Shown: piece by piece, positions 8,623 through 32,937 of the stretch | How positions within the stretch are numbered: the stretch's first letter is position 1 | Layout of the letters: each line of letters opens with the position of its first letter | NCBI GenBank assembly: GCA_026874595.1 | Contig: CM049313.1 | Span: forward strand, 53,555,659 to 53,619,658 | Origin: Sipunculus nudus | Lineage: Eukaryota; Annelida; Sipuncula; Golfingiida; Sipunculidae | Direction of reading: 5' to 3' | Length of the DNA: 64,000 bases | Program-made: the position numbers and the translations under genes | The notes under the pieces: generated by a model | The model's database searches: none | What the model was told of the DNA's origin: nothing | The model's input: the letters and a program-made list of their open reading frames with translations, nothing else

Positions 8623-8677
8623 ATGAGGTTAGTATTCGCCCTAGTAGTTGTCGGCGCGCTGGCGTGGACCGCCCAAG
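8623..8677 (+). CDS. gene 1 exon 1 (signal peptide)
   Basis: ATG in CCAACATGA context, 18 codons plus one base, ending CAAG before donor GTAAGT (8678). Encodes almost the whole signal peptide. Same length (55 nt) and phase as gene 2 exon 1. Confidence 0.85.
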
Positions 8678-11600
8678 GTAAGTCGTATTTTAATTATTTA
8701 AAATATATGAACAAATAAGCATATTCTCGGGTAGGTCAAATTTACTAGTGTGTAAATCTCTTTAAGTGAATATTATAACATTTAAATCTTTATTGGCAAT
8801 GTTAGTGTCGATGCCAATTGAAAGCACAATTCAGTTAATATACTGTCGAAACTCGGAAAATATTCACAAGAAGCTGTGAAAAATAAGTTTAAATAAAGAA
8901 AAGAATTTAAGGTAAATTGCCACATGAGGGAATAAGACGTGTGGTCCAATTATTTGAAAGCCTTGACCAATCCTTAGCATAAACTTATTTCCAGTATTTT
9001 ACATTTTTCTGATTGCGTTATTTTTAGATGGAAAATTTCTTAGGGGCCAGCTTCGCGGGGGTAACTTAGTGGGGGCATTTTGTTTTTGCGTGTTTTTGGT
9101 GGCTGTGAATGGTTATTTCCAATTAAAAGCCAGATTTTTTCCCCAGCAGTTTGGATATAGCAATTGTATGCAGCCGATCTAAAATATATCTAGTACTAGA
9201 TCACCTAGAATTGAGATTAAATGGAACAGAAGCTTTACTTAAATTACTATTGAGTGGTTATCATTTTGGTTTAAAGTTTGTAGTGCTCTATAGTATATAA
9301 ATATTTAAAAAAAACTGAAAACTGTCACAAATGATAAAAAAATTATCCGGCTCCCTAACTGTCCGCCGCTTGGTCTGTTGAAATGAGTTCAGCATTGTAA
9401 ATGACAAATATAGCCTGTACTTATTGCAGACAAGAGCTTATATTTGACCTGCAGTTGCCACTTTAATACACTCGGAAATCAATCACAGGTTACCACGTAA
9501 AGTGATATTGTTGAACAAAAGGATTCATGCTATAGAAACCTGAGCTAAACTGAATTGCACTTGGTAGCCAGCCAAACCTAATTGGAACCCCCAACCCCCA
9601 TTATTTTACGGATTCCTGTAAAAATTAAATCTTCTTAACTCCCGTGCTCTCATACTCATTTGGAAACCCATTTTCGTAGAATTTGTGCAGTTCAAAACAA
9701 AAACTTTTTTTATCTAACCGCCTCCATTTTTTATGCTCTCTTATCTTATTTTCGAAGTATGTACATCTGCAGTGTTCCATTTCGGGTTGGAACTACGTGG
9801 CAGGCGGTAACACTCGCTTCCTATAATGTTATGTTTGTATTCTGGCGCGCCCAAGTTCGGTGTCTACTGCACCTGCGGGTCCTCAGTGTGTAATCAACCC
9901 CATTGCTGGGTCAAAACACAGAACTCTACCGTGAAAATCTCACTGCCTCTTCTGAGATTTGAACTCACGACTTCCCGCCTTTACCCAGTGCTCTACCCCT
10001 GAGCCAAAGAAGCCGACAGTTCCACACAGGTTAATATTTATCGCGTAAACATGAGTCATCTATTGAATATTGCAGCTTGATTGGAAAAGATGAAGCTGGA
10101 TTGGAGTTGGGTTTAGTGTTTCAGTATAAGTGGATTTGAATGAAGTGACATTTTTGTGGTAATCCCATTGTATTTGAGCTGGTTAAATGAATTTGAATGA
10201 CGTGACATTTGTGTGGTAATCTTCACAGGCGGCAGCTTCTCTCGAGCTATCGGTGCGATCGCCAGGTCTTCCAAAGTACGTAGGCTTGAGAGCCTGATTT
10301 TCCACGGTCTGACCTTGGCGGACATCAGCATGGGGGTCACTCATATGGTCATGAAAGGCTGCGAATACGAACCGGAATTGTGTACCATCAGACCGGAAAT
10401 TGAAAAACTTGAAAAGCAGGTATGTGTAATTTGTGCAGGATACTTTACATAAATTGGAAAATATTGTCATAGAAATACAATTGTCAGTTTTGGGGTAATT
10501 TTCTCAGAACCTTTAACATTAAAAAAAATTCTGGAATAGTGTAACAGTTTCCGGAAGTATGTTAAACTTTCCAGAAATATATTGGAAATAAAGACATCTT
10601 GAAAATCATTATTGCAATTGTCTTTCGAAAATTATTTTTGCAATTGTCTTTATTTCCAATATATTTCTGGAAATTTTTATAAATATTTGACTTTCATGAT
10701 TTTTCTTTCATTTTTGGAATAAAGGAAAATTATGACCGTTAAGGGAAGACTTGATTCCAAAGACCACTTGGAAGCACCTTACTTAAGCTGAAGCCCTTTA
10801 CTCGTTTAAATTTCATTCTTCAGACAGTGGTCTAGGTAATGGTCGAAGTGCATGTGCTTAATGACAACTGCCGGAGTAAGGGGATTCTTAAATGAAAATT
10901 TTCACATTACTTGTTTAATTTGTCTATCGGGTTAACTAATTTTAATTTAATGCTTGATTCAAATATTGCTATTTTTATTGTATAACTTAATTCTTGGAAT
11001 GTTCATGAAAGATAAAAAACCGGGAACACTGTTAATAATAATATATAATGAATGGCAAATACGTATTTATGTGTATAATATTTAATGGGTTCTTATTTTT
11101 TATTTAAACTAAAGATTCTGATTAAATAGAAAATTTCATAAAGTATCAAAAAGTGGACATTGTACTTGATTTAGATCGTGTTAATACATTGGTGTTTATA
11201 CATTTGTACAAACTGGGTGTTGTGAACGCAATACATTAATAATCAAGCTTTTTGTCCCCCGCTTCCTTGGAAGGAACAGGCGCCATTGATTTCGGTTTGT
11301 CGGTCTGTCCCTCTGTCAGTCTTTCGGTTTGTCAAGCCGTTAGGTTTACGTTTCTGTGCGATAACTTTCCTTAATATTATCTGATTTCATTCAAATATGG
11401 GTCCGTGATTGCTCTCGTGCTTACCCTGGTTGGGATTTGTTTTGGTGTCTGTCTCACAAGATAATTATACAAAAGATATTTAATTTTTATATGATGAATT
11501 AGCGCATTTATTTTCACTTATCACCAATAGTTGTCGCTAGCGGTGGACATAAACTACTTAAATTTTGTTCAGTAACTGCCAGGTGCTGCCATCTTTTTAG

Positions 11601-14600
11601 CGTGATTAAAACTATTTGTAATTACTCGCCAAAGACTTTAAATCATCCCGGACTTGAAGCGGGAGACAGGCATTTCTTTAATTTGTTTTAGATTTATATT
11701 GTAGATCGCTCATTCTGTGGGTGTTAAATCTGTTTTATCTCAACTGGCATTTTTGTCAACTGACTTTTTTGTCAAAATACACTTGTCATTGCAATACCTG
11801 AAAATGAACAATGGATAGTTCCTTTTTAATCAAACGTTGTAGGTTGAAGATATTTCCAAAAATGTTAAGACCAAGGCGGACGAGCTGGAGGCGCTCGACA
11901 CCGCCAACAACGACATGTACACGTCCGTGAATCAAGCAAACCAGAACAACCGGGCCATCAGAGATATCCTGCTGCGCATCAGCGAGTTCTCCGTAGACCT
12001 GATGACAACACTAGCGGAAGTGACGGCGGTACAGAGCGTTGACGTGGACCAGGTGAAGCTTGACGCGTACAGATTGGGTACCAGCGCCGATCTGGCGAAG
12101 GATAACGTGAACGCATTAAAGGATGCTACGGAAAAATACTTCAAAATGTACAATACACATTTCCTAGCCTTAGACCTTGGCCCGACCTTGACCTACTACG
12201 CATATTTGGCGGGAGTTGAGATGAAGGCGTACAAAAAGAAGCATAACGCTAAACCTCCCAAGCTCGCGAATGTTGACAGTGGCATCCAAAAGTCTACTGC
12301 CAGCCTCGGCAAATCTGGGGGTGTTCTGAATAAAGTCCGCTCTAATACGAAATTGAAATATATGAAGGTTAGTAGTCTCAAATGTCGTTTAAATATAAAT
12401 ATCCAGGTGTTAATTTCATGTACATCAAATGTTTTTGTTGTAATAAAACCTGAATCCAATCTTTGTTTTGTCGATAACAACCTGAATGTGAAAAAAAAAA
12501 ATCCATTATCGTTAATCTATCGGTGTTTATATAAATCAGTTAAGGATGAAATACCATAAGTAATGCATTGAAGCGGTATTCAAGCGGATTCTTTATATTG
12601 AAATCTATTAAGTTTGGCAATGTTATATTGTCTGATAGTTAATTCTCATGAGAATAATACGCTAAACATAGCCTGACCAATTAACAAATTCATGTGAGGA
12701 TAATCGGTAGACAAAAGTTTATACAGACTGTAATTGTTTGGTAACATTTCATATTAGCTCCGCAAACTGTTAAGTCATCTGAGCTACAGCGATCACCCTT
12801 TGTCAGTCAACCGGCTGGCCGTCCGTCCGTTAACAGGGTACCTTTCATGGCATGACTGTAGAATAACTAGCTCAACTCCCTGAAGCACAACACTTCTGTA
12901 AACAGAAAACGTTTTGTTCAGCTGCTTGTATCTTAATTTTTTCCAACTTATAATTACCTGCCTCTTACCTCTCTAATACATGAATTCTAAACATCATACC
13001 GTCAGTTTAAGTTCATAACTTTATCGAGACCGTGATTCTCCAGTCGCTCTTAAATGGTAACCGTTATACCAAGAAACTTCAAACTGTACATCCAGGTAGG
13101 TCTCAGGCATCTTTTCTCCGAAACCCGAAATTAGGTTATGGTCACCCATATCCTCAAGACTGCAGACCGAAAACATGATTTTTTTAGCACCCTGAACGAC
13201 AGATGGGCACAAATCGTATGCATTAACCATGGAATCTTCTAACGCAATAAACTGAGATCCTTGGCAATTCTACTTGGAAACCTGAAACTAAGTCATGGTA
13301 ACCAGGTGGACTCGCCGCGAATGAGGCTTTACCTTATCTTCATTTACTAATTTAATATTTCATATTTTCCGAAATCATACATACGTGACCGAACATCTGT
13401 GAACATTACTTTTTAAAGCTCCAAATCTCAGAGATGCTGGATACACACCAACATCTAACCCTTTTTTTTTCTAGACCCATTCCCCAAATGCCCTGAAAAT
13501 TTCGGCTTAAGTTTTGGATAACGTTATGTTTGAGGACGCGCGCGAGCACACACACACACGAACGGGAATCAACGCTTACCTTCCGGGCGTAGGCAAAATT
13601 AGCCGAACGTCATGGCCCATGGGCCTCTTGTTTTTGTATTGTAATACAAAAGTTAATTGATGCAAGTCGGCAGAGGCGGTTCCAGTATTTAGGAACAGGA
13701 GGGGTCAAACCCAGTGCCAGCGCAATAACTTGTATTTAACATTAGGATGTAATTTTTTAAAGTATTATCTGCAGATAATCACTTAATTTGGTCACTCCAA
13801 TGTAGCAAAATTCTTTTCAGACTGCATTAAACGTCGCATTCAGAGGAACCTTGTACGCGGCCAGCATCGCAAACTTCGTGTTGACTGCTAAGAAGTCTGA
13901 AGAGATGTTGAAGAGCCTGAAAGAGACCAAGGCTTTACTGGAGGAGATTATCGCTAAAAATACTGAGGTAGGACTTTTTCTTCTATGCTTTCAGGAACGA
14001 GACTTGTTTTTAATCATACTGAATCAGGAGACGAATGTTCATGGAGTACGTGGTTGTACTAACACGCGATGATAAGGGAAGAAACTCGGGAGTTATGAAA
14101 GGAAATTAGGAACAGTTTACACAAAATGTGGTTTTTGGCCGAGCGTACTAAGTCATCTGAGCTACAGCGATCACCCTTTGTCCGTCGTCCGTCCGGAAAC
14201 TAAACTGTATATCCATAGAGGTCTTAGGCAAGACTCCTTTGAAAACCTTAACTTAGGTTCATGTTGACTTTTTTTATGACCTAACATGATTTTAAGCAGC
14301 CAAACAGTCAGACGGGGCACAATTTGTATCCATTCAGATCTGGAATTGTCTGACAAAAGTGCACGGAGGTCCTAGGAAAATGTCCTTTGAAACCGTTAAT
14401 ACGGTCACGGTGACCTATATTCTGCGACCTACGGTGACCTCATAGACTATTTTCTGAAAGCTATGAGCAATAAATATGAATTTGAGCACCCAGACAGACA
14501 GGGAACAAATTGTATCCATTTTCCTTGGAACCTTCTGTTGTAAAGTCCGGGGGGTCCTATGGGTAAAAAAGACAAGATTAAACGAAGCATCCTTGTAGCA

Positions 14601-17600
14601 CCTAATGAAAAAGGACTTGATATGATACTCAAAATCTTAAATCGAAGCTTTAAATATCTGGTTTTCTGTCTGGTTCTTTGGACCATGGTTGGAGACAGAT
14701 GGTTAATATTCAACTTAATAGAATGTGCTCATATATTTAAATGAAATCTTAGGTTTAGTGACAATTCCATTTTGATAACTTATGCCACCCTTTTTGAAAG
14801 ATATAGAAGCATGGTTTAAGTATAACTTTAAGAATGTTTACACTCCTGATGTTATTTTATGTCAAGAGTTGTTTTTTAATTCACATATAAAATTAGATAA
14901 GAAAACTGTTTAAGTAAAGAAAGGTAGAATGCTGGTGTCACAAATTTATAAGATTATAAAGAATAAGGATAGACAATACACATTCCTGTCAAATACAGAA
15001 CTGACAAAAAAAGTTAAAATTCGGCAAATGCAGTATTAAGTATAATTGACGCAATTCCAGTAACTTGGCAAAAATAGTTAAAAACATGTAATAATACACA
15101 TAATTACATTCCAGATAAAAAATGATATAATCATGAACTTTAGGAAAGTCGCTTAAAAGGTTTACAAAGATATAATAATGGATGTCTGCACTGAACCTTT
15201 AACAACTATTGATAAATTGACTAGACGCATGCAGTGTAACCACCAAGATTTTGTATATAAGCCTTTTAACAAGTAAATACATCAAAATATCTGAAATATT
15301 AAGAATGTTTTAATTTAATCTTTATTCACAGGACTATAACTCTCAATCCACTTTTAAATAGGGAAAGCAAGTAGTGTGCTCTGTTCACCTTGTAAAGTAA
15401 AGAAATAATCATACATCTGTTTATAATTGTAGGGAAGTATAATTGTCGGGGAAATACAACCCATTTTTTTAAATTGGTTGATGAGCAAACACATACCAGT
15501 GACGAAATTTTTTCAGTAAAATATTTATTTTTTAACAATTCTACCAAACCTTTTATAAATATGCTTATATATTGCATACCTTTTTTAAATTAAATGTGTG
15601 CAAATGTAAAGTTTAAGGCCAAACTTCTCTTTTTAATAATAAGCTCTATATTGAACAGATATATACCAGAGAAATATTACTTCCAAGAAAGGAAATATGT
15701 TAATAAAAAAAGTTATCCCCTTTTTGTAGAAAAATTTCATGTTATTCAGGTGAACTTGATGTACGGTAAACGATAATCATATTCTTTTAATGACCTGTTA
15801 TTATTTTTAATGCTATCTGGTTTTTCTATTCAGCAACCACTGTCATATTATGCTCAATGATTGTAAACGTACTGTTTCAAGCTTGAAAGGTAACCATTCA
15901 AGATGATATTTATACCTGGCGAAAATATACAATTTTTCACTGAAATTGGTCTCATTATATAAATATTACTACGCTTGCATTTTTTTTTTTTTTTTGCAAT
16001 TATGTAACGTTAGTCTCTTGTTAAGTGCTTTTGTCTCAGGTCTGATGTATGTGTGTTGTATCCAACATGGTATTGATGTTTATTTAAGCTGTTGTATTGA
16101 AAGGTTCCGGGGGGGGGGGATCCTTGTAAAGTCTCCTTTGAATACTGGAACTAGGTCTTTAATTCTTGTAATACATTACAAAATATAACACATTACAAAA
16201 TACAAAAAAAATGATTTTGATCAGTTTCCAACAATAACACTAGCCATAGGCTATTCCAACAGACAAAATATAACATTAATAAAGGAAATCCGCACCCAGA
16301 AAAATTCAGCTGAGCGTCATGGCCCATGAGCCACTTGTTTTATATACAAGAAGGTAGGATGCAAATGTCAACTGACAAGCCAGTTTTTCTTCAATTTGAA
16401 AAGTTTAATACGTTTAAATAGTAAATATTAGAAAGCGATTTAAACATGTTTATGTGTATTTATGGTGATACTTTCTATATGATACCACCTTCATAACCAT
16501 TACAATTTATACAACCATTGCATAATTCGCGTGAAATTGAATTCGTCCTGCTCTTGAAACTGATCTCCAAACTAAGACTCATCTAGACTAGTGGCCAGTG
16601 TCTGATAATTTTTGTCACATGGTCGCCAGAACAGGTTATGACTAACCTCGCAACCAAAATCGCGTAAGAGGAGATCTTAAGTGCGATTACAATTTTAATG
16701 TACTTAACCATTTAAAATTGCAGGTTATGACGAACATGGCCGACAACATAGCCTATGAGAAGACTGTGAAAGTTGATCTTGAGAATGATTACACAGAAGT
16801 GGCAGAGACTTAGGAAAATGGTACAGACTTTCTTAGGCAGATGCACGACTTCCCAGAGCATCTGTTTAGCACGGCCCCGACAGGGATGCCAACATTCAGC
16901 GTTGACGGTAGGTGGCCTAGTTTTAAATATGAATTAATGTTGTCGTAATAATACTTTTAAAAAAAAACTTCATTTCCAAACTTTATTTGCCTTGATCATT
17001 CAAATCAATTCTGGATCTTTTTAAGTAGACTCGAAAAATAATTTCGATGACGTCTTTAAAAAAATGGGAGGACCTGGAAAATAAGTTAACTTAAAAGAAC
17101 TAGGGAACCTGGGACCATCTGAAATCCGTTCGGTCTACAATCAAGAGCCTTTCGAACGAACAGAAATGAATAAGCGTGCCTCAGTATTTGCCTGTTTCCT
17201 CGCTGTTAATCTATTACTTAACGTATTCGGGATATTGAACCTAACAGGAGAATATTGAACCTTGTATGAGCAAACTATTAAATACTAATACGCTTAACAT
17301 TTTCAATTTACTGAAATTATACACAAATTAAGTCGTTTGACAATATGAATATAGAAATGTAGAACGTATGTAAATCAGGCTCTTTACTGTAAATCATTGT
17401 CTGGACACGCTGATCTCGTGTTATTATAGGAAAATTTATCTTTTCAACAGGCCTAGCTTTGTCGAACATCCTGCAGCGACAAGTTGAGACATTAACATTC
17501 CTTTTAAAGTGGGCAGAGACCTTGGACGGAGTCTACGACCGGATTGCGGCAGTCAGTATCGTAAAGAAGATGCAGCTGGATGTGACCAATATGAACTCTT

Positions 17601-17731
17601 ACATTGTGTTAAGTATTTGTCAGTCTTTGGACAAAACATTGGTCCACGATGACGTCTTTAGAGCTATAGCCTTCCAGTACCCGACGCTAACAGAATACGA
17701 AGGGGTAAATCTGGCAGGATACAAGAGTTAA
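8623..17731 (+). CDS. gene 1: six-exon gene for a secreted helical protein, interrupted by an in-frame TAG
   Basis: Exons: 8623-8677, 10229-10419, 11843-12367, 13821-13967, 16724-16907, 17451-17731, all with GT donors and AG acceptors. Joined they make 461 codons including the final TAA, with a TAG at codon 336 (16811-16813). Residues 1-19 form a clear signal peptide (MRLVFALVVVGALAWTAQG), so the product should enter the secretory pathway. Exon 2 holds the only close cysteine pair (CEYEPELC). Exon 3 (residues 83-257) is Ala/Asp/Lys/Asn-rich and looks alpha-helical, with a more apolar patch (GPTLTYYAYLAG) and then a basic linker. Exon 4 has a second apolar patch (GTLYAASIANFVLTA). The minus-strand paralogue (gene 2) has the same exon phases. 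I do not recognise the family; a membrane-active helical bundle is one possibility, unproven. If the TAG is real, the product is 335 residues and lacks exon 6. Start codon chosen because the signal peptide and the 55-nt exon match gene 2. Confidence 0.8.
9945..10014 (-). repeat. tRNA-derived repeat (SINE head) in gene 1 intron 1
   Basis: On the minus strand this 70-base segment has an A-box-like TGGCTCAGGGGTAGAGC and a B-box-like GAGTTCAAATCTC at tRNA-like spacing, with a pairable D stem (GCTC/GAGC). The anticodon arm and acceptor ends do not pair well, so it is not called as a functional tRNA. Confidence 0.5.
10229..10419 (+). CDS. gene 1 exon 2 (Cys-loop exon)
   Basis: Acceptor CTTCACAG, donor CAG|GTATGT. 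191 nt, residues 19-82. Contains RRLESLIFHGLTLAD and MKGCEYEPELC, both strongly conserved in gene 2. The two cysteines probably form a disulphide in the secreted protein (inference). Confidence 0.85.
10568..10673. repeat. perfect 29-bp inverted repeat in gene 1 intron 2
   Basis: Arms 10568-10596 and 10645-10673 are exact reverse complements (29 of 29) around a 48-base loop. The loop itself contains a direct repeat of GCAATTGTCTTT with the right arm. RNA from either strand could form a strong hairpin. Confidence 0.9.
11843..12367 (+). CDS. gene 1 exon 3 (large helical exon)
   Basis: Acceptor TTGTAG, donor AAG|GTTAGT (weak at +3). 175 codons. Long amphipathic-looking stretches, an apolar patch GPTLTYYAYLAG, then a basic Lys/Ser/Asn linker ending LKYMK; gene 2 ends the same exon LSYMK. 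Reading frame continues past the donor, so the boundary rests on the paralogue match. Confidence 0.85.
12773..13635 (+). mobile_element. dispersed element with conserved termini, copy a (gene 1 intron 3)
   Basis: Begins AGTCATCTGAGCTACAGCG with GATCACCC and GTCCGTCCG-type motifs, ends GTCATGGCCCATGGGCC. Interior segments match the units of copy c (31.4-32.9 kb) in reverse orientation. No coding capacity. Terminal style and tandem interior resemble non-autonomous, Helitron-related elements known from bivalves, but class is inferred. Confidence 0.65.
13821..13967 (+). CDS. gene 1 exon 4
   Basis: Acceptor TTCTTTTCAG, donor GAG|GTAGGA. 49 codons, phase 0 at both ends. Starts with the apolar segment AFRGTLYAASIANFV, nearly identical in gene 2, followed by a Glu/Lys-rich helix (SEEMLKSLKETKALLEEI). 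Confidence 0.85.
14151..16342 (+). mobile_element. dispersed element with conserved termini, copy b (gene 1 intron 4)
   Basis: Same 5' terminus (AGTCATCTGAGCTACAGCG) at 14151 and same 3' terminus (GAGCGTCATGGCCCATGAGCC) near 16337. The interior is disrupted or extended by unrelated AT-rich DNA between about 14560 and 16080, where family sequence resumes. No intact coding frame. Confidence 0.55.
16724..16907 (+). CDS. gene 1 exon 5, contains premature TAG
   Basis: Acceptor AAATTGCAG, donor GACG|GTAGGT. 184 nt, exactly as in gene 2. The frame reads DYTEVAET, stop, ENGTDFLRQMHDFPE; gene 2 reads IDISTTFRNITDFLKQMNDF at the same place, so the TAG (16811-16813) replaces a Phe codon. Skipping this exon would not restore the frame, since 184 is not a multiple of 3. 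Confidence 0.85.
17451..17731 (+). CDS. gene 1 exon 6 (C-terminal exon)
   Basis: Acceptor TTTTCAACAG. 281 nt ending TAA. Encodes SNILQRQVETLTFLLKWAET and, near the end, AFQYPTLTEYEGV; gene 2 has AFQYPKMTNYNGV. The frame is intact although it lies downstream of the premature stop, which suggests the stop is recent or allelic. Confidence 0.85.
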
Positions 17732-19004
17732 CTTTTTCGAATTGTCTCTAATGTGAAGCAAATTTTACTAATGTGCAGTAAATTTGTAGCCATGGTCAGT
17801 TCAGTCTAATTCAGTCAATACTGTGAAACATTTGTCCTTAAAGGTTTGTGATCTTCCACGAAAATCTAAACGTATGGTTTGTTTGTTAAAGATAAAATAT
17901 TAAGTGGCGTTGGCCCTTGCCGTTGTCTATAAGCTGTTAATTTCTCGTTCCTGTTACAGAAAACCTCTGGAAGTACGGATCTAATTCAGGGTGTTGTGAA
18001 ATAATACCTTGTAAAACTCCTATTGCTGTTTGTTTTCTTTACCAAGGTTACCTGAGATTTGTTAGAGAAGAAAGTTGACATACAGGCATAGATGTATGGT
18101 GTAAATTTGCCATTATCATTATCGTTCGAATACTTTTAAAAATAATTTTACATAACATTACCGAAACCTCTAGAACCATAGATATAATTTTAACACCCAA
18201 CCCGCTAGGTCATAAATTAAGTAGTATTAAACCTCCCATGGTGGTCATTATGCAATATTTACCTTTAATCTGAATCTTAGCATACAAAAGATCGTATACA
18301 CTACACGACGATCATACAGGAAATTTAATGGAATAGCCTCCCTTTATGACTTTTAAAAGGATTAGAATTGACTCAACCACATTTTGACTCGACTACATTT
18401 TACTCACTGTATCTAATGTAAATGACGCTTGAATTCTCTGGAATGAGGCCTTTCTCTACGTTTGTAATAAGCATGCACTAATTAGATAAGTCAGTGTAAA
18501 ATTCCAAAAACCTTGTTGATGAAAATGAAAATTCGAGAAATGGAGGCAACGTAACTTCATGTACAAAATAAGGTTAAAAATCAATGAGACAGGCTTAGTC
18601 ATTTATTATATGGTATGAACCAAAAAAAAGATAGGGATATTGTGAACAGCATCTTAAAGAAGCTCAAAATGGCAATAATCCCAATTACATTTAATTTTGA
18701 AGCGGCCCTACAACTGTCTGTGAAATTTTCTACGTCCAAGCAGTTTTGACATCCATCATCCCCCCCCACCGTAACTTTGAATTTAAACTAAACAAGCTAC
18801 CTACCCCACTGAAAAGAAATCCACAAGAATTACTCCCATACAAAAAGATAAAGGACCCAAAAAAGATATTAATAATTATCGGCCTTTTTCTGGGGTTTTT
18901 TTTTTCCTCATTTAGCATGCATATCTAAAACAGGTTCTACATGCTCAAAATTTATAACTCTTAAAAATTATTACCATTTTTAACATGACATAACTCATGA
19001 TCAG

Positions 19005-19510
19005 TATTGTCACACCACACACGCAGCGGACATATATTCCCGAGTTCTTTCACACAGAAAAGTCCAAAATACCACTCGTTGTCTGAACTGAAGAACACGG
19101 TTTATTCCGGTAACATCCAACAAGTGGCCACCGTCGTCGTTGACTGGTTCCAATCTTACAATAACAACGTCTTCAACAAATACCAATCACGTATATCTTC
19201 TAACGCCCTGATCGGCTGCAACTATATATATATTCTCTCCAGGACTAATACTGTCCTCGCGGAATTTATAACACACCCCGCTCAGTGTTCAACTATATAA
19301 CGACCCGTCACCAGTTGACGCTAGCTTCCAAAATCATACACCGCCTGACCGGCCTTGACACCGCCCTATTTATACCTGGGTAACCGAAACTTCTAGAGGT
19401 CTCTAGAATAATCAAGTCGTTCCTTGTCAAGACTAGCACCTACGGGATTTTCTAGAATTTACCTATTGGAAATTACACATTACCTGAATTCTCTAGAACC
19501 TTCTGTCATC
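19005..19510 (-). repeat. LTR-like or promoter-like block
   Basis: On the minus strand there is a TATA box (GGTATAAATAGGGC, TATAAATA at 19367-19374) preceded by several TTCTAGA-type motifs, for example TTCTAGAA at 19450-19457. GC content is higher than in the flanks. This arrangement fits a solo LTR or an old promoter. No second copy bounding coding DNA was found, so the call is weak. Confidence 0.3.
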
Positions 19511-20054
19511 TAATTATAATAAATCATGGTACAGTAAGTCCATTTACTTATATAATAAACAAAATACTTTAAAAAAAATTGGTTAAAGGTAAACTGGTGT
19601 TTTACTATATTTGTCCGTTTATGCCTTGGGTCCGCAGTCACTGTTGTATATTTAAGCCTTCCTGATACACTTGTACTCCTCGCGATTTCGTGTAAAATTA
19701 AACCTGAGACACAAGCACATTCATCCCGCTTATGCATCCTTCTCGCGTGTGTTTCTCTAACTATACTTTATTTTGTAACAAATTATTAGATTTTGTTACA
19801 AATTTAAGTTGCAAAGGGACTATTCTTTTAATCGCCAACCTCTACATTCCTCCCTTTGTTGGTTTTAACTGAATACTTCAGGTGACTATATAGCTTACTC
19901 CATATAAAGGACTACAAATCAGCGGGCCCGAATACAGGACTCCTATTAAGCGGGTCCGATGCTGTGTACTGAGTGATCAAAACGTGGATTTAACTATCTG
20001 GCTTCACAATGTATATTGTACTGTCAACTATAAAGTTCAGGAACATTGAATATT

Positions 20055-20200
20055 GTTGCGGGTAGCACATAAAAAGCGGACAGAACTGTCTCGCTGGTGA
20101 AGCTTGCTTTTCTAGCGAAGCGGTTGGTACCCCGGACATGGGCGCCATCGACATGGGTTCGAATCCGGGATCGGCCCCTGAGCAATTTGTATACGTAACA
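20055..20200 (+). mobile_element. tRNA-derived SINE, copy 1
   Basis: A-box TAGCGAAGCGGTTGGTA at 20113-20129 and B-box GGGTTCGAATCC at 20155-20166, followed by GGGATCGGCCC. Closely matches the minus-strand copies at 43001-43150 and 60793-60943 over about 140 bases. Confidence 0.8.
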
Positions 20201-21741
20201 ACATAAGCATGGGATATGGCTTAGCAACACTTCTACAGAAAATCTTAAGATATATATTAGAACTTCTCGTATATTTTCCGGGCAATCTAAGGAGTGCAAT
20301 CTTGCACTACACAGATGCTGCTTTGGTCATTGTTTGCATATTTTGTACTGAAAACCGGTTTGTGTATCAGTCTTTACGACGTGTATCGGCCTTGTCCTCT
20401 GACAAACCTCAAATTCATCAGCCTCGGTTCTGATGAACCTCTTATACATAAAATTTCGATCGAAATTCAGTATTGAGAAGAGTATTCACATGGTTGTGAA
20501 TTCCGTGTAACTTTTATCAACATACAGAGATTTTTTTATGGAGAAAACAGTCCGGGCTTTATCGACATGAAAGTCCAAGTCACTGAAGAGCATTTGACGG
20601 CAGCTGTCGGTTGTGGGCCCAAATAAACATGGGTCGCCTGGTTGTTTGCTGTAAACTATCACTATAAATCACACTCTCTATAATTGCTTCAGATTAATAC
20701 GGATTATCCTGATACTAAAGTTTGCTAGATTGAATAGGTATAATGATATTAATGAATCTGTTTTATTTATGAAATTAAATTAAAGCAAGTACACCGAAAA
20801 AAATGGAAAATCTCAAACTGTATTTATTTATTAAAGTAAGCTGTATGAACTCGTCATTTAAATGAAAAGGTATAAATTGATTCTTAGTGTTTGCTTATAT
20901 AAAAAAGTAATTTGATACGGGTGAATTTATGACCTGTATTTCATCTCCTGCTATGACTGGTGGCATTATTTTCCAGTCCTTAAATTACTAAGTCCGTATA
21001 TTTTTATCAGCATGAACATAAACAGTGTATTGAAGAAAGTATGTAAAAAAACGGGTTGCCGGGGGGGGGGGGGGTGTTATTACCGAAAGCAGTCTTGGAT
21101 TGGAGGCGTTACATTAGGTTTTCGCTTAAATCTAGTTCTGGGAATATAAAGGCAGAATTAACTGACAAATCTTTTGGTTTATTTTTCTGCAATTTATTTT
21201 TCTTTTGAAAAAACTTTTTAAGCAGTGAGGGGATGCTTGGGAAAGCTACCCTGCCCGTGTAAACTGACCAGCTGAGACATGGACCTTATCTGCTCGACGA
21301 TTGGGACATTCCAAAGGAATAAAGAAAGAAGCCCCCGTCCTAAGAAACACCCGCTCAAAATCCAACCTTATGAAAAAATCTTCCCAAAAAATCACATTAA
21401 CAGTCACATAATAAAAAGTTGCAGAAGACTTAATTTCCCCGATAGGTGTGAATGGGATATAGGAATAACTCCTTTATCGTTCCTCGCTTAAGGCTTATAC
21501 CCTATTGTTCCCTTAGTTTTCATAACAATACATCTTAAGCGTAAGATTAAGCTATAAGAGTCAAAGCTTTTCCATTACTCAGATTTTTGCACAATCCAAA
21601 ATCCTAAATTAGCAATTGCTAAATCAAATTGCTTTGCTTTTATTCACTGTTTTGTACCTTAATAACATGTAAATAATGCAAATTAGGAAATTTAATATCA
21701 CTGAATTTAATCTATTTTTAGAAGATTTTATTTTATCTTAG

Positions 21742-21920
21742 TTCTTCTTCTAGTAATTTTATCTCAGTGCTAGAAGAAGAAATGCATCTTTCATCAAAAT
21801 CATTAGAACATTAGAAAGAGTTCTTCTGATAAGTTCTAAAAGAGTTAAATACATCTTACATAAAAACATATTAACAGTTGAAGAGTTCTTCTAGTAATTT
21901 CTTTTTTAGTTCTAGAAGAA
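21742..21920. repeat. pair of short hairpins
   Basis: TTCTTCTTCTAG (21742-21753) pairs perfectly with CTAGAAGAAGAA (21770-21781). A related hairpin uses TTCTTCTAG (21886-21894) and CTAGAAGAA (21912-21920). Both are followed by similar AAAT(G/A)CATCTT sequence, so the hairpin is duplicated. Function unknown. Confidence 0.7.
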
Positions 21921-22105
21921 GAAATACATCTTACATGAAAGGAAATCATAAGACCAGTAGAACAGTATTTAATTAGATAATTGCGATCACAATTATTAGA
22001 TGTTCCTAAATCTCAGTATCTGTGACACAATGAACCAGTTTCGTGCTTTCAATATTCTCACCGTATTCCGGTTTTATCCATTGTCTGCATATAACTTAGT
22101 GTTCT

Positions 22106-22392
22106 TTAACCCCTGTACGTATCCATGACTACACCATTGTAGTTCGTCATCTTTGGATACTGGAAGGCTACTGTCTTCATCAGCATCTCGTTCGTTATTG
22201 CCTCATCCCTCGTGATGGTTTTAATGAGGTCGAGGACCGTTGCAGCGTTAAGCTTTGTGACATTTAACTTGAGATTCCCCACCAAGTTGACGGCAGATAT
22301 CCGCTTGTATACACCAACCAGTGTGTCAGCCCACTCGTCTACAAACTGTAGCGTCTCTTTTTGTCGCTCAACGATGTTGTCCATGGTGACAT
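22106..22392 (-). CDS. gene 2 exon 6 (C-terminal exon)
   Basis: Acceptor GTCACCACAG. 287 nt ending TAA. Encodes MDNIVERQKETLQFVDEWAD and AFQYPKMTNYNGV. An ATG lies near the exon start, but the upstream exons show that this is internal. Confidence 0.85.
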
Positions 22393-25300
22393 CTGTGGTG
22401 ACAATTTGACAATATATTACTCTAAATCGATATCTAAATAAAATAATAAAGGAATTATAAGATTTCAAACCACACCAGAGCAAAAATCAAACACTTGAAT
22501 GAATTAATATGTCTAAATATTGGAAATGTAAAATAATGTTTTACAAGTGTCAAAGCCAGCATCATAAACACATTGATGTATCCTAATTATTAAGAACGTT
22601 CGTGTGACCAGATGAACATTTAATGGAAAATCAGACAATCCCTAGACCACAATGTAACCAAACCAACTGCCTCTCCTCAATTTCCTTACAGCATTTTTAT
22701 ATGATACAATTGTAATAGGTCATTTACTTTTAAGTCAAGATTCATAAGATGAAAGAAAGAATGCCACTGCAAACACTGCACAGAGACACTTAATGACAAA
22801 TTAGTACCCGATAAGTGCAACTTCTGTGTCTTGGATATAACCAACTCGCTTAAGCGTTGGTTATAATTACATGCAAGTAATGTGATAACCGTGTCTACAA
22901 AATTTCGGAATGATTGGTGTAATGGTTCATGAGATAATTGGCAGGTGGACCATTTTAGTAGTCCACCCTCCTATATGCATTGGACTAATTAATCAGAGAA
23001 ATGGATTTATTTTTTTTTCCTTATTAAAGCAGACCCTTCCAAGTAGAAAATACACCTTAAAGCCAGCTATACACCTACCATTTCTGTAGAAGTCATGTTA
23101 TTTATATTTCTAGCTTACTCTGCATACATATAAAGTGACTTTATGTAACTCATGTTAGAAAATCATTTAACGTATGTATGAGCCTGTTTACAATGTGTTA
23201 GTAAACACGGAACATGCGCCAGTATAGACAAACAGAAAAACTGTGTAACCTAAGGCGGTGGGATGCATATTTGCGGAAGGTAAATATGTTATAAACATGT
23301 TATAGCACTTGGATATAAACAAAATAAACAGCTTGCGTGATATGGGATTGGAGTTTTCTGGCCTATAAATTGTTATAAAAGGTTAATGGTCTTCGCTTTT
23401 GCTGATAAACTTTAGATATCGAATATGCCCCTTTAAGCCCTGTAACCGGACTAAAACGACCATCAACGCAATTTTTTTCAACTAATTTGAAATCATTTTA
23501 ACAAAAGTACCGTAAAATCAGAACGTCAACAATGCGTTACTTACCGTCAGCGGTGAAAGCCGGGGTATTTGAAGGGAAGGATTCAAACAGGGTCTTAGGG
23601 AAATCATTCATTTGTTTCAGGAAGTCAGTAATGTTCCTGAACGTGGTAGAAATATCAATGTAGTTCTTATTCAGCTCAACCTTCGTCGTCGCTTCCTTTG
23701 TTATTTCTGCGTCCAGTTCAGTTATTACCTACGTGAGAAATTAAACGTGATGATGTTTGAGGTTAAACAGTATCATTGGTTCCAATTTTCGAACAACTTG
23801 TCTAAAGTTTCCCGATTTGTATTAACCTGGCCAGACAATAATTGGTCTTTTAATTGTTGAATTTTGAATTAAGTCATTTATTTAAAAGTTAACCTTTAAA
23901 TATGCGAATAAGATTTATTACATATATATATATAACAGAGACAGGAGTTACACATTAAGAAAGAGAAAGATCGGGAGAGGACGAGAGAAAGAATGAGAGT
24001 GAAAGAATCATTGGGAAAGAAAAAGAAATAGAGAGAAAGAGAGCGAGAAAGAGAGAGGAAGAGTGACGGAAAGAAAGAGAGAGACAGAGAGAAAAAGAGG
24101 AAGAGAGCGAGAAAGAAAAGAGAGAAAATAGAAAAAGAGGAAAGAGAGTAAGGGAAAGAGAAGGAAAGAAAAATGAAAGAGAAAAGACAAGATTAAGATG
24201 GCAATAGGAGAGAGACAGAACGTGACCCTGGGAGAAGGAGAGACAGAGTTAGAGAGATGGAAACAGAGAGAGAGACACAGACAGACTAAGAGATAAACAA
24301 CGAGAGAAAGAGAGAGAGAGAGAGGAGGGGGGGGGGGGCAGAGAACAAAGGCATGCTGATGGTTCGACATAACATACAAAGAGACCTGCCTGTGAGTAAT
24401 TAGCCAGTACAGAGTCCAAGTCACTTTTCCTTTCCTTCAGTGAACGCAACTGCTGTTTTGAGGACTGCACTGTAGTTACAAAATTTGCAATACTGGCGGC
24501 ATAGAGGCCTCCTCTGAAAGCGAGGCCCAGAGCAGTCTGTAAAGATTAATAAATAAAAAACTTCATACATCATAGAGAAAATATATAATATATAGAAACG
24601 TAATTGTCATTACTAATTCAATGTGATAATTTTCATTGATCTGGATTGTAATTAATGCATGGCCTTAAATATATATGTACAATACGCTATGGTTATCAAG
24701 CCCTACAAATATCTAATACGTTGTTTGTTTTCTTACAATTAATTCACAATGATGATTTTGGTGACTAGATATGATTGGAACCCTAAAGGTCCACAATTTG
24801 GGCCCCGCCATGACAAGTTCCTGAAAGGCTTACGGGATGTTGATGGATCTGGAAAACGACAGAGCACAACCTCTCATCGGTGTCAATCTTCGGTACAATT
24901 TTCATGGCAAATGCTTGAAAGATTCTTGTGACAATGCGCTTGTAAGGAATTCTTAGATCGCTGCCTGGTGGCCATATTTTATTTCTGATGTGTCTTAAAT
25001 ACGATTGTGCACATCCTCCCAGGGTTTCGATCGAAAAAGATTTTCCCGGCCATATCTTGAAAGATTCTTGCAACGATGAGCGCGAAAGAGCATGACGGAC
25101 GGACACGAGGATGGACAGACAGACAGAAGCAAAGAAAACCTGATTTTCTTAAGGGACTCGCATAGGCGGGGTCCTGATAAATGCTAGCTTATAAAATACC
25201 TGACTGGTGCTAATAAAATAACTACAATAGTAAAAAAAAATTGTAAAGGCTCGATTTAGTTAAATTCTACTTGCCTTCATATACGAAAGTTTTGAGGTTT

Positions 25301-28300
25301 TGGTGGACTTTGAGGTAGTGGAAGGCTCTCTTGAAATGCTGTTGCTCGCCTTGGCTTTACTATAAGCTTTGCTCGTCTTGGTTATACTCCTCTTGGGCCT
25401 TTTGCTTGTTGTGTCCACGACTTTAGAGGGCGGTTTATTCTTACTAACTGTTGGAGGTGATTTTGTCGGGGTTTGCTTGGAACCCATCAATTTAGTACCA
25501 GTAAGATAAGTGTAGTACGCCATTGACGGAGCAAGGTCAAAAAGAAGGAAATTTTTAGTATACGTGTCTGAGTATTTATCCAATTCTTCCATGGTGCTTT
25601 CCACGTTTTCCTTGGCAATGTTAGCTTTAGATAACAGTGTGTATGCATTCATTTCCGTTTGTTCAATGTCCACTTTGTCCACGTGCGTCACTTCCTGTTG
25701 AAGACCTATCTCCTCCACAGGGAAGGCCCTGATAGGCATTAAACGGCTGATCAAGTCTTTGTTTAGTCGGTTGGCCTTGACCAAGGTCATTGACATGTTG
25801 TTACTGGCGACGTGGAGATTTTCCAGTTCTTTGGTCTTTATTTCCATCGGTATGGATTTTTCTTCAACCTAAAAGATGTTTCATAAAATGAACATATACT
25901 AACGAAGCATATATATGCATTAAGTTTGCACAAGGAAACATATTCTAAATACTTATTTTGAATAAGCATATTTTAATTGATTTCAAAATATTCTCTCATT
26001 TAATGAAATAACAGTAATGACAAATCCATTGAGGCACTATTTCTGGATAAAGATGAACAACCAAATAAAGTTCAAATCTAAAAATTACCTATTTATAGAT
26101 TGGATTCCAGTAAAACAATGACACATCCATACTTAGAATAGCTGTATTAATAATTGTTTCCGTGGTTCGCAGAGTAAAAAAAAAGTTTTCCTGTTTTGGA
26201 GATAAAAAAGAAATGTTCTGTGATATGTTTGTTGCAACAACATATAATGTAATGATAGTTTTCATATATTTATATCAAAAGATATGGCATCTCTACTTCT
26301 AATTCTGTCCATTACTGTTTTATACTGATTGGTAGAAACATTTATGCATTCTCATATATATTATATTTAACGATACATGTACGGTTTGAATAATTATTTT
26401 CATACTTGGCATGAAAAAATAACATACATATTACAAAGTTAAATCTAGTTTTAGTTTAGCTGGCTCATAGTCATCGGAGCTGTAGCGATCACCCTGTGTG
26501 CATCGTTCGTTCCTTAACAGCTAGGCACAAGTCAAAACTGATAGACTTGGAACAGTTGTAAAAGAAATCAAAATTTATGTTACGGAACCTAATAACAACA
26601 GATCATGTAATCAGATGAAATGTCGAGGGGAATGAATAGAGAAGTCAGTGGTTTTTTGGTAACAAATAATTAAAATTTATTCTTAGAACAATCCTAAGAT
26701 TACAATACACAAAATTAATACGATTACACAGTATACCAATAATAAAAATGTACAGTACCAGAGTGTCCGGATCCTAGGCTTTGATTTCTGGTACCAACAC
26801 CGTCACAGCTCAACAAGAGTCCTTTAACATAATTTATCCATATGAACAGTTCATGTAAATCTTCTCAGAGAATAGTCCGAATAAATCTTGAAAACATTCT
26901 GTTGTATTCCAAAACTGAAGTTCTGGTAATAATCCCAAAGGCAAACTGAAGACAACCCGTATTTAATCTGTAAAAATCCGTAGAAGATCTGTGAGATCTG
27001 CAATTATCGGAGAGGTAAAAAAAAAAAACACTGACGAGAGAGTCACATTCTTCCGTGTCCGCTGGTTTTTTTTCTCTCTACCGGCTCTAAACACGGCCAA
27101 ATTTGGACTCGAGTGCTCGTGTATGAACATGCATATCTGAATATTACTACAAACTTACGGGCAGTCTGAAGGCCTATTTATTTATTATTGTAGTAATAAT
27201 CATACCGTACAGTTTATTTCGAAGGGACTTACATTTATGAGTTATATGCTTCCGAATCGATTTTTCCCACCCTGTTCAATTTTAGTATTTATATTTAATC
27301 CATCGTTGGGATCAAGGTAAGCCGTCCCGGAGTTAAAATTCATGAATATTTTGCATCGGTAAACAGATGTCCGTTTTATCCTTAGAGCGTTGCCGTGGTA
27401 ACGAGTACTCGAATCATAGTCGACTAAAGGTTATCGGGTACAACATTTTGTACCCGTTTACAGCCCTAGTTGGAAAGGTCACTGATTTTAGATAACATTT
27501 GTAGATGAGCAACACTGGTGATACCATCTACATTTTCTTCTGTATCACGTTACAAATTGTCTATATTGAAGGCACATATTAAAAGAATGTGCATCACCAC
27601 TGACATGTATTCATCACCTTGGGAAATTTTGCTAGAGTACGTTTATAAGTGTGGAGATAAATATCATATTTAGATATAGAGAGCGTTACTTTTTCTCCTT
27701 GGGTCGAGAGAAATATGATCAGAATAGCGTAACCTTTTCCCCAATTAGGGGGAAGATATGATCTGTAGCTGTAGATACGTTACTTTCCCTCAGAAGACAT
27801 AGTCGGTCATGTAGATAACGTTACTTTTCACCTGGTGAGGGGAACATAAATTATCTTTAGATGGAGATAGCCATACCTTCACCCGGTAATTAGGAGAAAA
27901 ATATGACCTGTAGATGTAGATAACGTTACTTTTCACCTAGTAAGGGGAACATAAATTATCTTTAGATGGAGATAGCCATACCTTAACCCGGCAATGAGGA
28001 GAAAAATATGACCTGTAGATGTAGATAACGTTACCTTTTCCCCTAGTTTTCCTAGTTGTGGTTTGATTTCACAGATCTCTGGCTCGTATTCACATCCTTT
28101 CATAACAACATGGGTGATACTCATAGCGAAGTCAGCGAAGGTCAGGCCATGGAATATCAGAGACTCCAGACGTTTGAGCCTGGACGCCGTGGTGCTGGTA
28201 TTGGTCCGTCCACCAAAGCTCCAAGCTTAAGTACAACAGATTTGATGACGTCTAAGCCATATGTGATGAGGCAGAAATAGATGAATATTAATCAGATTAA

Positions 28301-29154
28301 AAATTGTGTTTTTTTCCTGAGTTCCTTCGCTCCTTATCCAGAACATTAAGGATTAAATATGGGAAATCAAGCGTCATATACAACAAAGGAAATTAAAAGA
28401 AATACTAGAAGAAATTGGGTTAAAACAATACAGAATGTCGAATCTTAGGTTCGAGATTTAATTTTCACTCACAGATAAACATGGAACAGCTGTCACTACA
28501 ATTGATCCATTGTGCATAATAAAAAATATACACAAGCATAAAAAATCAGACACAATGCTTTCGTATGAGAATGTGCAAAAAATATTTTTCATAAACCGTC
28601 TGTTGCTTCATATATGAAGATATACATCCATACGCTCCTATTCTTTATCATGTTATGGCTTTGTTTTTACATAAAAGCGTTATACTGAGCAGTTTGTGCA
28701 AAATTTTTGATAAAATTCGTCAGCACATGTACAGCAACCTTAATTTCAATACGTTCTCTTGATTGTTGATACGTGGTTACAACATGGAACTAAATGAATC
28801 AGATCAGCATTCTTGTAATACCATTAAAGGTTCTCATTTTCTGTTTTACCTGGTGCCTTCAGCTTTACGTTATCGAATTAGTGAATACTTTGATATAACT
28901 TAAAAAATAAAAAAAGCACTCTATTCATACGATTAAAAATGTAATAGAATAGCAGCTGCAGTAACATATCATCAATTATAAAGAGAAATGTGACTATAAG
29001 CATACGTTTACATCATCAATTATACAAATTTAAAGACATGTGGAAGATTCTTAGAGCAATGCCAGCAGATGGGTTGATTAAAGAAAAAATCCAGGTTACC
29101 TTGAGACGGAAAAACAACCACAAAGATAATCATAAAGACTGTCAAAACCTTCAT
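22106..29154 (-). CDS. gene 2: six-exon gene for a secreted helical protein, paralogue of gene 1
   Basis: Exons (minus strand, 5' to 3'): 29154-29100, 28225-28035, 25868-25275, 24536-24390, 23728-23545, 22392-22106. Together 486 codons with one stop at the end, giving 485 residues. Residues 1-18 are a signal peptide (MKVLTVFMIIFVVVFPSQ). Exon 2 carries the cysteine pair CEYEPEIC. Exon 3 (83-280) is helical in character, with apolar patch APSMAYYTYLTG and then a 64-residue Lys/Ser/Thr/Pro linker (about 213-276) much longer than in gene 1. Exon 4 carries GGLYAASIANFV; exon 6 ends in AFQYPKMTNYNGV. Introns 3 and 4 start with GC, not GT. Gene 2 is the intact member of a tail-to-tail pair. Family unrecognised; no enzyme motif is visible. 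The regular helices and two apolar patches would suit a self-assembling or membrane-binding protein, which is speculation. Confidence 0.85.
23545..23728 (-). CDS. gene 2 exon 5
   Basis: Acceptor CACGTAG, donor GACG|GTAAGT. 184 nt, same as gene 1 exon 5 but without an internal stop (THR-THR-PHE-ARG-ASN where gene 1 has the TAG). Encodes NITDFLKQMNDFPKTLF. Confidence 0.85.
23950..24345. repeat. long GA-rich polypurine tract in gene 2 intron 4
   Basis: Nearly uninterrupted purines of AGAGA/GAAAG type over roughly 370 bases, ending in a G run at about 24328-24339. In the gene 2 transcript this reads as a long polypyrimidine (CU) tract within a GC-AG intron of only 661 bases. Confidence 0.9.
24390..24536 (-). 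CDS. gene 2 exon 4 (GC donor)
   Basis: Acceptor AATCTTTACAG, donor CAG|GCAGGT, a second GC donor. 147 nt as in gene 1. Encodes ALGLAFRGGLYAASIANFV and a charged helix (QLRSLKERKSDLDSV). The nearby GT four bases on would break the frame. Confidence 0.85.
25275..25868 (-). CDS. gene 2 exon 3 (large helical exon, GC donor)
   Basis: Acceptor AACATCTTTTAG, donor AAG|GCAAGT: a GC donor with otherwise ideal consensus. 198 codons, 23 more than in gene 1, the excess lying in the basic Ser/Thr/Lys/Pro linker. The frame ends LSYMK at the same place as gene 1 LKYMK. Confidence 0.85.
26469..26520 (+). repeat. terminal fragment of the dispersed element, copy d
   Basis: AGTCATCGGAGCTGTAGCGATCACCC matches (with changes) the 5' terminus of copies a and b. 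Only this end is present. Confidence 0.6.
26578..27120 (+). repeat. TTACGGAACC repeat family, copy 1 (gene 2 intron 2)
   Basis: Starts GTTACGGAACCTAATAAC and shares ordered blocks (GAATGAATA, AATTTATTCTTAGAAC, GGATCCTAGGCTTTGAT, GTGTCCGCTGG, CGGCTCTAAACACGGCC) with copies at 52.4 and 57.1 kb. Lacks the short TTCCGTAA-ending segment found in the others. No coding frame. Confidence 0.75.
27811..28034. repeat. 105-bp minisatellite abutting gene 2 exon 2
   Basis: GTAGATAACGTTAC recurs at 27811, 27916 and 28021, an exact 105-base period, with conserved internal text (ATCTTTAGATGGAGATAG). The last unit runs into the exon 2 donor. Weaker related units extend back to about 27620. Confidence 0.85.
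28035..28225 (-). CDS. gene 2 exon 2 (Cys-loop exon)
   Basis: Acceptor GTACTTAAG, donor AAAAG|GTAACG. 191 nt, as in gene 1. Encodes RLKRLESLIFHGLTFADF and MKGCEYEPEIC. The acceptor has a poor pyrimidine tract and was chosen because it gives the matching phase and length. The donor lies at the edge of a 105-bp minisatellite. Confidence 0.8.
29100..29154 (-). CDS. gene 2 exon 1 (signal peptide)
   Basis: ATG at 29154, 18 codons plus one base, donor CAAG|GTAACC. A longer upstream frame exists, but this ATG gives a clean signal peptide and a 55-nt exon identical in length to gene 1. Confidence 0.85.
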
Positions 29155-31356: not shown

Positions 31357-32937
31357 AAAACAAGTGGCCCATGGGCCATGACGCTCAGCTGAATTCAAGG
31401 AATGTTGAACAATGAGCAAAATGACTGCCAGAGTGGAAAAAATCATGAATTTTGTGAAAAGTCCTTAGAAATGGGTTTCAGTGGGCTTTTGGACAGATGA
31501 CAACTTCATTTGAAGGTCTCATAAATAGAAAAAAATGCGTAAAAATTTGATAAAATAAAGGGAGTGCCACCAGTCTGCAGGAACTGATGAAACACTCCAT
31601 GATCAATATATATCCAAAGAATCATGGCTATCAAGGCATTAGTTATTCAGATACTGGAGCTTTTGTTTGTATCAAATTTTTAATTATTCTTGGGGGTATT
31701 TATGAGCCCTATAGCTCAGGGAATATGGGTAACAGAAACCTAATTTCAGGTTTCCAAGGAGATTTTTCATTAGTCTCCCTGGATGTGAAGTTAGAAGATT
31801 CTAGGTTCAGCAGTTACAGTTTGTGCCATGTTAACAGATGACCACTTCATTCGAAGGTCACATAAATACAGAAAAAATGCCTACAAAATTGAAAAAAAAT
31901 ACAGGTGGCACCACCAGTTTGCAGGAACTGAAGGAACACTCCATGATCAATATACCTGCAAAGAATCATGGAGATCAATACATTGGTTATTCAGATATTG
32001 GAGCTTTTGTATCAAATTCTTAATTATTCTGAGGGGTACTTACTACGAAGGATATGGGTAACAGAGACCTAATTACATGTTTTTCCCACAGACTTTTCAT
32101 GGACCTCACTTGATGTCAAGTTAGAATTAAGAATCTAGGTCAAGCGGTTACGATTTGTGCCCTGTTAACAGATGACAGCTTCTTTGAAGGTCTCAAAAAT
32201 AAAGAAAAAAAAATCGTAAAAATTGGAAAAAAATACAGGTGGCGCCACCAGTTTGCAGGAACTGATGGAAAATCCAATGATCAATATTCATGCAAAGAAT
32301 CATGGTGATGAATGCAGTAGTTATTCAGATACTTGAGCTTTTGTATCAAATTTTGCATTATTCTGGGGGGGGGGGTACTTTGGAGCACCATAGCTCCAAG
32401 GATATTGGTAACAGAGACCTAATTTCAGGTTTTCAAGGAGATTTTTCATTGACCTCCCTGGATGTTAAGTGAGAAGATTTCAGGTCCATTGGTTACGATT
32501 TGTGCCCTGTTCACAGATGACAGTTTCATTGCAGGTCTGAAAAAAAAGAGAAAAAATTCGAAAAAATTGGAAAAAATACAGAAGGGGCCACCAGTCTGCA
32601 GGAAGTGATGGAACATCCCATTATCTATATTCATACAAAGAATCATGGTGATCAATGCAGTACTTATTCAGATACTTGAGCTTTTGTATCAAATTTTGCA
32701 TTATTCTGGGGGGGGGGGGGTACTTTGGAGCGCCATAGTTCAAAGGATATTGGTAACAGAGACCTAATTTCAGGTTTTCAAGGAAATTTTTCATAGACCT
32801 CCCTGGATGTCAAGTTAGAAGATTCTAGGTCCAGCGGTTACGATTTGTGCCCTGTTAACGGACGGCCGGACGGACGACGGACGAAGGGTGATGGCTATAG
32901 CTCAGATGAATTTAAGTCAGCTGAGCTAAAAACTGTT
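31357..32937 (-). mobile_element. dispersed element, copy c, with four ~340-bp internal units
   Basis: Reverse orientation relative to copies a and b: starts CAAGTGGCCCATGGGCC, ends with GACGGACGACGGACGAAGG and CAGCTGAGCT. The interior is about four tandem units (anchor CCACCAG at 31567, 31911, 32245, 32588; spacing 344, 334, 343). The matching position in segmental copy 2 (about 54450) lacks it, showing insertion after the duplication. No protein-coding frame, so non-autonomous. Confidence 0.75.

Follow-up and report, generated by a model that had tools for sequence, protein, structure and literature searches.

Old convergent paralogues for predicted secreted helical proteins in Sipunculus nudus, with an in-frame stop codon in one copy

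A 64,000-nucleotide stretch of the Sipunculus nudus genome (contig CM049313.1, positions 53,555,659 to 53,619,658; here called the window) carries two genes that are almost certainly old paralogues, inverted with respect to each other and arranged tail to tail. Gene 1 occupies positions 8623-17731 of the plus strand, in six exons of 55, 191, 525, 147, 184 and 281 nt, and gene 2 positions 29154-22106 of the minus strand, in six exons of 55, 191, 594, 147, 184 and 287 nt; the stop codons, at 17731 and 22106, are separated by a gap of about 4.4 kb. Both models, spliced in the window at GT/GC-AG sites, share the lengths of exons 1, 2, 4 and 5 (55, 191, 147 and 184 nt) and all five intron phases (1,0,0,0,1 after exons 1-5), and differ by 69 and 6 nt in exons 3 and 6. 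The proteins align along their whole length (BLASTP, single comparison; 366 bits, E 3e-127) with 185 identities, which amounts to 40% of 460 aligned positions or 38% of 484 columns. The linker in exon 3 accounts for 23 of the 25 gap columns and exon 6 for the other 2, and the signal-peptide exon is the least conserved part (11% identity over 18 codons). Compared locus to locus at E 1e-3, similarity of the DNA is confined to 116 bp in one place and 68 bp in another (72-74%), so the introns of the two genes are unalike, and the matched exon grid is explained by the homology of the genes. The original prediction for this region had proposed just such a pair, with its orientation, spacing, four equal exons, agreeing phases, moderate protein identity and dissimilar introns, and an origin by old inverted duplication; each of these is borne out, the last by the grid, the phases and the strength of the protein match. 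The duplication itself is of an ordinary kind, and the family is unannotated here.

The pair looks conserved at the protein level. Over 459 codons (Nei-Gojobori), genes 1 and 2 differ with dN = 0.516 and a saturated dS of 2.17, values that would fit purifying selection since the duplication. A relative-rate count, in which a third member of the family (described below) serves as outgroup over 386 columns without gaps or X, gives 50 residues unique to gene 1 vs. 37 unique to gene 2, and this lineage difference is not significant (p = 0.20). The original prediction had also suggested changing selection, and for this the comparison offers no sign, in a pairwise estimate that could miss single sites.

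Gene 1 is interrupted by an in-frame TAG in exon 5, which is codon 336 of 461 (the terminal stop included in the count), so that the six-exon model, as assembled, yields no full protein. The two intact six-exon genes that had been expected are thus reduced to one: gene 2 is open over 485 codons and could encode a 485-aa protein with a signal-peptide-like start. Nonsense-mediated decay usually follows a 50-55 nt rule, and with its stop 94 nt ahead of the end of exon 5 the gene 1 message is a candidate for this pathway. Apart from the TAG, gene 1 displays no sign of decay among the features tested. Its splice sites are canonical throughout, the frame downstream of the TAG is open to the terminal stop, and identity with gene 2 is 42.7% after the TAG (124 codons) vs. 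39.4% before it (335 codons), with dN of 0.486 and 0.528, respectively. In the portion behind the TAG the unique residues number 16 in gene 1 vs. 11 in gene 2, an excess that is not significant (p = 0.44). The stop would be recent, polymorphic or an assembly error, and gene 1 would have been under protein-level constraint until lately. On a less probable reading, although one with some weight, gene 1 would be a fixed pseudogene and only gene 2 would still function: the TAG is in frame and lies well ahead of the last junction, whereas the canonical splice sites, the open and conserved remainder of the frame and the non-significant rate excess argue against it. The latter observations show only that the decay is not old; the relative-rate counts are small, and mild decay of gene 1 may be compatible with them.

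It is improbable that gene 1 makes a shorter product that still works, be it the 335 aa that precede the TAG or the product of a splice form with an in-frame AG as acceptor. Three of the nine AG sites between the TAG and the end of exon 5 are in frame (16814, 16841 and 16859, one of which coincides with the TAG), but this proportion is the chance rate, no good pyrimidine tract is visible at the sites, and conservation persists past the TAG. Within intron 1 of gene 1, a tRNA-Phe call (anticodon aaa) is found on the minus strand at 9944-10013 of the window; it is perhaps a tRNA-derived short repeat.

The six-exon model of gene 2 holds, but it requires two GC-AG introns that the original prediction did not mention, namely introns 3 and 4 with the donors GCAAGT and GCAGGT. 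GC-AG introns are a known minor class. A tandem array of 105-bp units (27809-28047; 2.3 copies, 94% matches) takes in the final bases of exon 2 of gene 2; by eye, it repeats donor-like sequence. An acceptor-like sequence lies ahead of each start codon (8 nt away in both gene 2 and the third member, 28 nt away in gene 1), which makes it likely that all three members have an intron in their 5' untranslated regions. The features of both genes are collected in Table 1.

Table 1. Exons, stop codon and spacer of the convergent gene pair, in positions of the window.
Feature	Position	Strand	Remarks
Gene 1 exon 1, signal-peptide-like	8623..8677	+	55 nt; donor GTAAGT
Gene 1 exon 2, C-x6-C loop	10229..10419	+	191 nt; 53% identity with gene 2
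Gene 1 exon 3, helices, first apolar stretch, start of polar linker	11843..12367	+	525 nt
Gene 1 exon 4, second apolar stretch	13821..13967	+	147 nt; 55% identity with gene 2
Gene 1 exon 5, interrupted	16724..16907	+	184 nt
Gene 1 in-frame TAG	16811..16813	+	codon 336; exon 5 ends 94 nt downstream
Gene 1 exon 6 with terminal stop	17451..17731	+	281 nt
Spacer between the 3' ends of genes 1 and 2	17732..22105	.	
Gene 2 exon 6 with terminal stop	22106..22392	-	287 nt
Gene 2 exon 5	23545..23728	-	184 nt
Gene 2 exon 4	24390..24536	-	147 nt; GC donor follows
Gene 2 exon 3	25275..25868	-	594 nt; GC donor follows
Gene 2 exon 2, C-x6-C loop	28035..28225	-	191 nt
Gene 2 exon 1, signal-peptide-like	29100..29154	-	55 nt

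The genome assembly (1,426,538,692 bases in 153 contigs) contains one further member of the family, on another contig of chromosome size (C9), which answers the original suggestion to look for more copies; counts from these searches are lower bounds, and remoter members may exist. The gene 2 protein matches at least 13 places to E 10, which comprise five exons each of genes 1 and 2, two parts of the C9 frame and one place on contig C16. Gene 1 exon 3 finds itself and gene 2, gene 1 exon 6 finds itself, gene 2 and the C9 frame (E 1.22), and the third member finds itself and gene 2 exon 6 (E 0.51). Within 100 kb on either side of the window no further copy appears at E 1. The C16 match (E 2.65) contains two stops and was dropped as a family member, and an open stretch of 29 residues on the minus strand of the window (252-338), which resembles residues 187-215 of gene 1 (E 0.75) and has no adjoining exon match, was left as chance. 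The original prediction spoke of related molluscs; a mollusc haemocyanin model has no match in this genome, but it has none in any of 14 control genomes either and is therefore uninformative.

The third member is an open frame of 433 aa on the minus strand of segment L036 (C9:20824000-20833999), of which positions 5204 to 3973 of that segment (409 aa) are the likely exon. Its alignments with gene 1 (434 columns, E 9e-29) and gene 2 (459 columns, E 4e-29) show 23% identity (z about 37 against 500 shuffles), and it retains the pattern G-C-x-x-x-P-x-x-C together with a C-terminal YP..xY.G.....Y. Some 14.8 kb upstream of it were scanned for signal-peptide-like exons that end in phase 1 before a GT, which returned six rows with four start codons; from these four the candidate at L036:9113-9173 (minus strand, GTAAGT donor, 3.9 kb upstream) was picked by eye. 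The third member thus seems to share with the pair an intron 1 after the signal peptide, in the same phase. The region of exons 2-6 is contained in a single exon, in which introns 2-5 are absent, leaving at most one coding intron.

The third member would have lost introns 2-5, four adjacent introns of the 3' side, in one cDNA-mediated event that involved reverse transcriptase. A Drosophila study reports that adjacent introns are lost together above chance, without the 3' bias that had been expected (PMC3296678). The direction of change is read from the three members alone, and the alternative is a gain of introns 2-5 in the ancestor of the pair. Such a gain is unlikely, as it requires four separate events vs. 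one loss, and joint loss of adjacent introns is on record in the same study.

Both products of the pair begin with an apolar, signal-peptide-like segment, as judged by eye and hydropathy, which is followed by C63-x6-C70; the proposed signal peptide and CxxxxxxC loop are upheld to this extent. Hydropathy, insertion and helix scales were used in the analyses of signal peptides, third member, membrane spans and shuffles. The predicted layout continues from the C-x6-C segment into long helices, an apolar stretch and a polar linker of varying length, and then into a well-conserved second apolar stretch, a long helix, a proline-containing turn and C-terminal helices. AlphaFold2 models were made of single exons (the exon 3 pair and the exon 6 pair). 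For the exon 3 pair, helices are predicted at 8-47, 52-58, 68-105 and 107-123 with a mean pLDDT of 57, and residues 126-198 fall below pLDDT 50; for the exon 6 pair, a helix at 3-39 is accompanied by shorter elements (mean pLDDT 56). The long helices of the original prediction are therefore present in the exon 3 model, in particular at 8-47 and 68-105, but at low confidence, and the conserved fold that it proposed receives no confident prediction in either model. In Foldseek, the low-confidence exon 3 model gives 258 matches to E 10 and none at 0.001; the best of them, to PI3K subunit chains (E 0.83), was treated as meaningless.

The family is nameless in the libraries searched, as had been anticipated. 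In Pfam all three proteins stay below the cut-off of every model, in NCBIfam the gene 2 protein, the only one submitted to that library, does so too, and no match among PDB sequences has an E-value under 0.18. Below the cut-offs, BAR_3 for gene 1 (E 0.00044, 20.4 bits vs. a cut-off of 31.7), ATG16 for gene 2 (E 0.0039) and COX14 for the third member (E 0.00077, 19.6 vs. 25) were rejected as coiled-coil or composition matches. The wider search for relatives, which did not extend to the phage collection, PHROGs, PADLOC and metagenomes, used two short patterns for each scan of contigs; it produced 39 and 165 pattern matches in bacterial contigs and 61 in viral contigs, of which none was confirmed, and plasmids gave zero matches at E 1. 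The abstracts surveyed, a non-exhaustive set, contain no matching family.

A tentative function may be proposed from this layout, to which a probability of about 0.3 is given. The product would be soluble and extracellular, its long helices packed in a bundle and its C-x6-C loop closed by one disulphide; a flexible polar linker of varying length would interrupt the bundle between two apolar stretches that are conserved in position. The apolar pair would contact membranes or lipids, as in a body-fluid or defence protein. Several points weigh against this proposal. No family or structure match (Pfam, NCBIfam, PDB sequences, Foldseek) suggests an action on lipids or membranes, the structure models are single exons of low confidence, and the signal peptide, assigned by eye and hydropathy only, is a candidate. 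When the best 19-residue window of each shuffled mature protein was taken in 2000 shuffles each, the stronger apolar patch was equalled or beaten in 54%, 40% and 49% of shuffles (gene 1, gene 2 and third member), and the weaker one in 84%, 82% and 86% in the same order. No apolar stretch scores as a permanent membrane span. The two apolar patches of the original prediction hence occupy matching places in all three members, but their apolar character does not exceed that of shuffled sequence, and this conservation of place is the remaining support for the apolar pair.

The same chance-level apolar stretches speak for a structural role, in which these would be extracellular coiled-coil or matrix proteins (of mucus, shell or tissue matrix), with helices that self-assemble and apolar stretches that form an ordinary core. 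The family matches below cut-off are solely of coiled-coil type, and the best, non-significant Foldseek matches are long helical hairpins. However, few parts of the proteins are conserved as well as the second apolar stretch (exon 4, 55% identity between genes 1 and 2), which exceeds what a generic coiled coil needs. A structural role is held as probable as contact with lipids or membranes.

The surroundings of the pair contain several other elements. Four 345-bp units (81% matches) form a tandem array at 31493-32859 of the window, and at 48351-51212, on the plus strand, lies a GC-rich region (52-53% GC in 2-kb windows) with retroelement frames, one of which, of 549 aa, matches RVT_1 (E 1.3e-29). 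Segments L021 and L022 (C8:53699659-53719658) include an LTR-type retroelement, with RNase H and integrase domains in the L022 frame. About 92 kb upstream of the window, a long open frame on the minus strand (L012:6610-7809) matches the major facilitator superfamily (E 8.2e-16).

On present evidence the pair represents a duplication of ordinary kind in a gene that lacks annotation, and any claim that both copies work has to reckon with the gene 1 stop. The three members found in 1.43 Gb, two of them intron-rich and one with a single coding intron, make a neat case for intron loss, and the pair also suits the dating of an interrupted copy. Contact with membranes through the apolar pair, if true, would give animals a new family of helical-bundle effectors.

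Two known groups of proteins invite comparison. The ClyA-like alpha-pore-forming toxins are described as a five-helix bundle with a membrane-active region between helices 4 and 5 (PMC6162564). In topology alone, and judged from the exon-wise models and a propensity plot, the proteins studied here read as helices, an apolar-linker-apolar insert and further helices, and the order of the helices and the insert resemble that published topology. They could on this ground be pore-forming effectors of a ClyA-like layout, in which three helices precede and two follow an apolar, membrane-entering insert; this has only a slim chance, since no PDB sequence matches, the apolar insert is within chance and no confident fold is predicted. 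The proteins differ from the toxins in having no PDB-chain or Pfam match, which is a weak test for so diverse a family, and in being encoded by animal-type spliced genes, with chance-level apolar stretches and exon-wise models alone. It is likewise hardly probable that the three genes stand for a line of secreted membrane effectors in animals, helical bundles whose helices and apolar insert follow the ClyA-like order, in which few copies diverge fast, one is polymorphic or has been lost through a stop, and one was remade from cDNA minus four introns at once. The SE-cephalotoxin-like proteins are reported from marine invertebrates, with a biochemical function given as unknown (PMC4986456); they are a lead only, set beside the family by description, and no likeness is claimed. 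The closest parallel is with tail-to-tail tandem paralogues that conserve their exon grid, which the pair resembles in exon lengths, phases, diverged coding sequence and unlike introns. It differs from them by the in-frame stop in one copy and is otherwise an ordinary pair of this kind.

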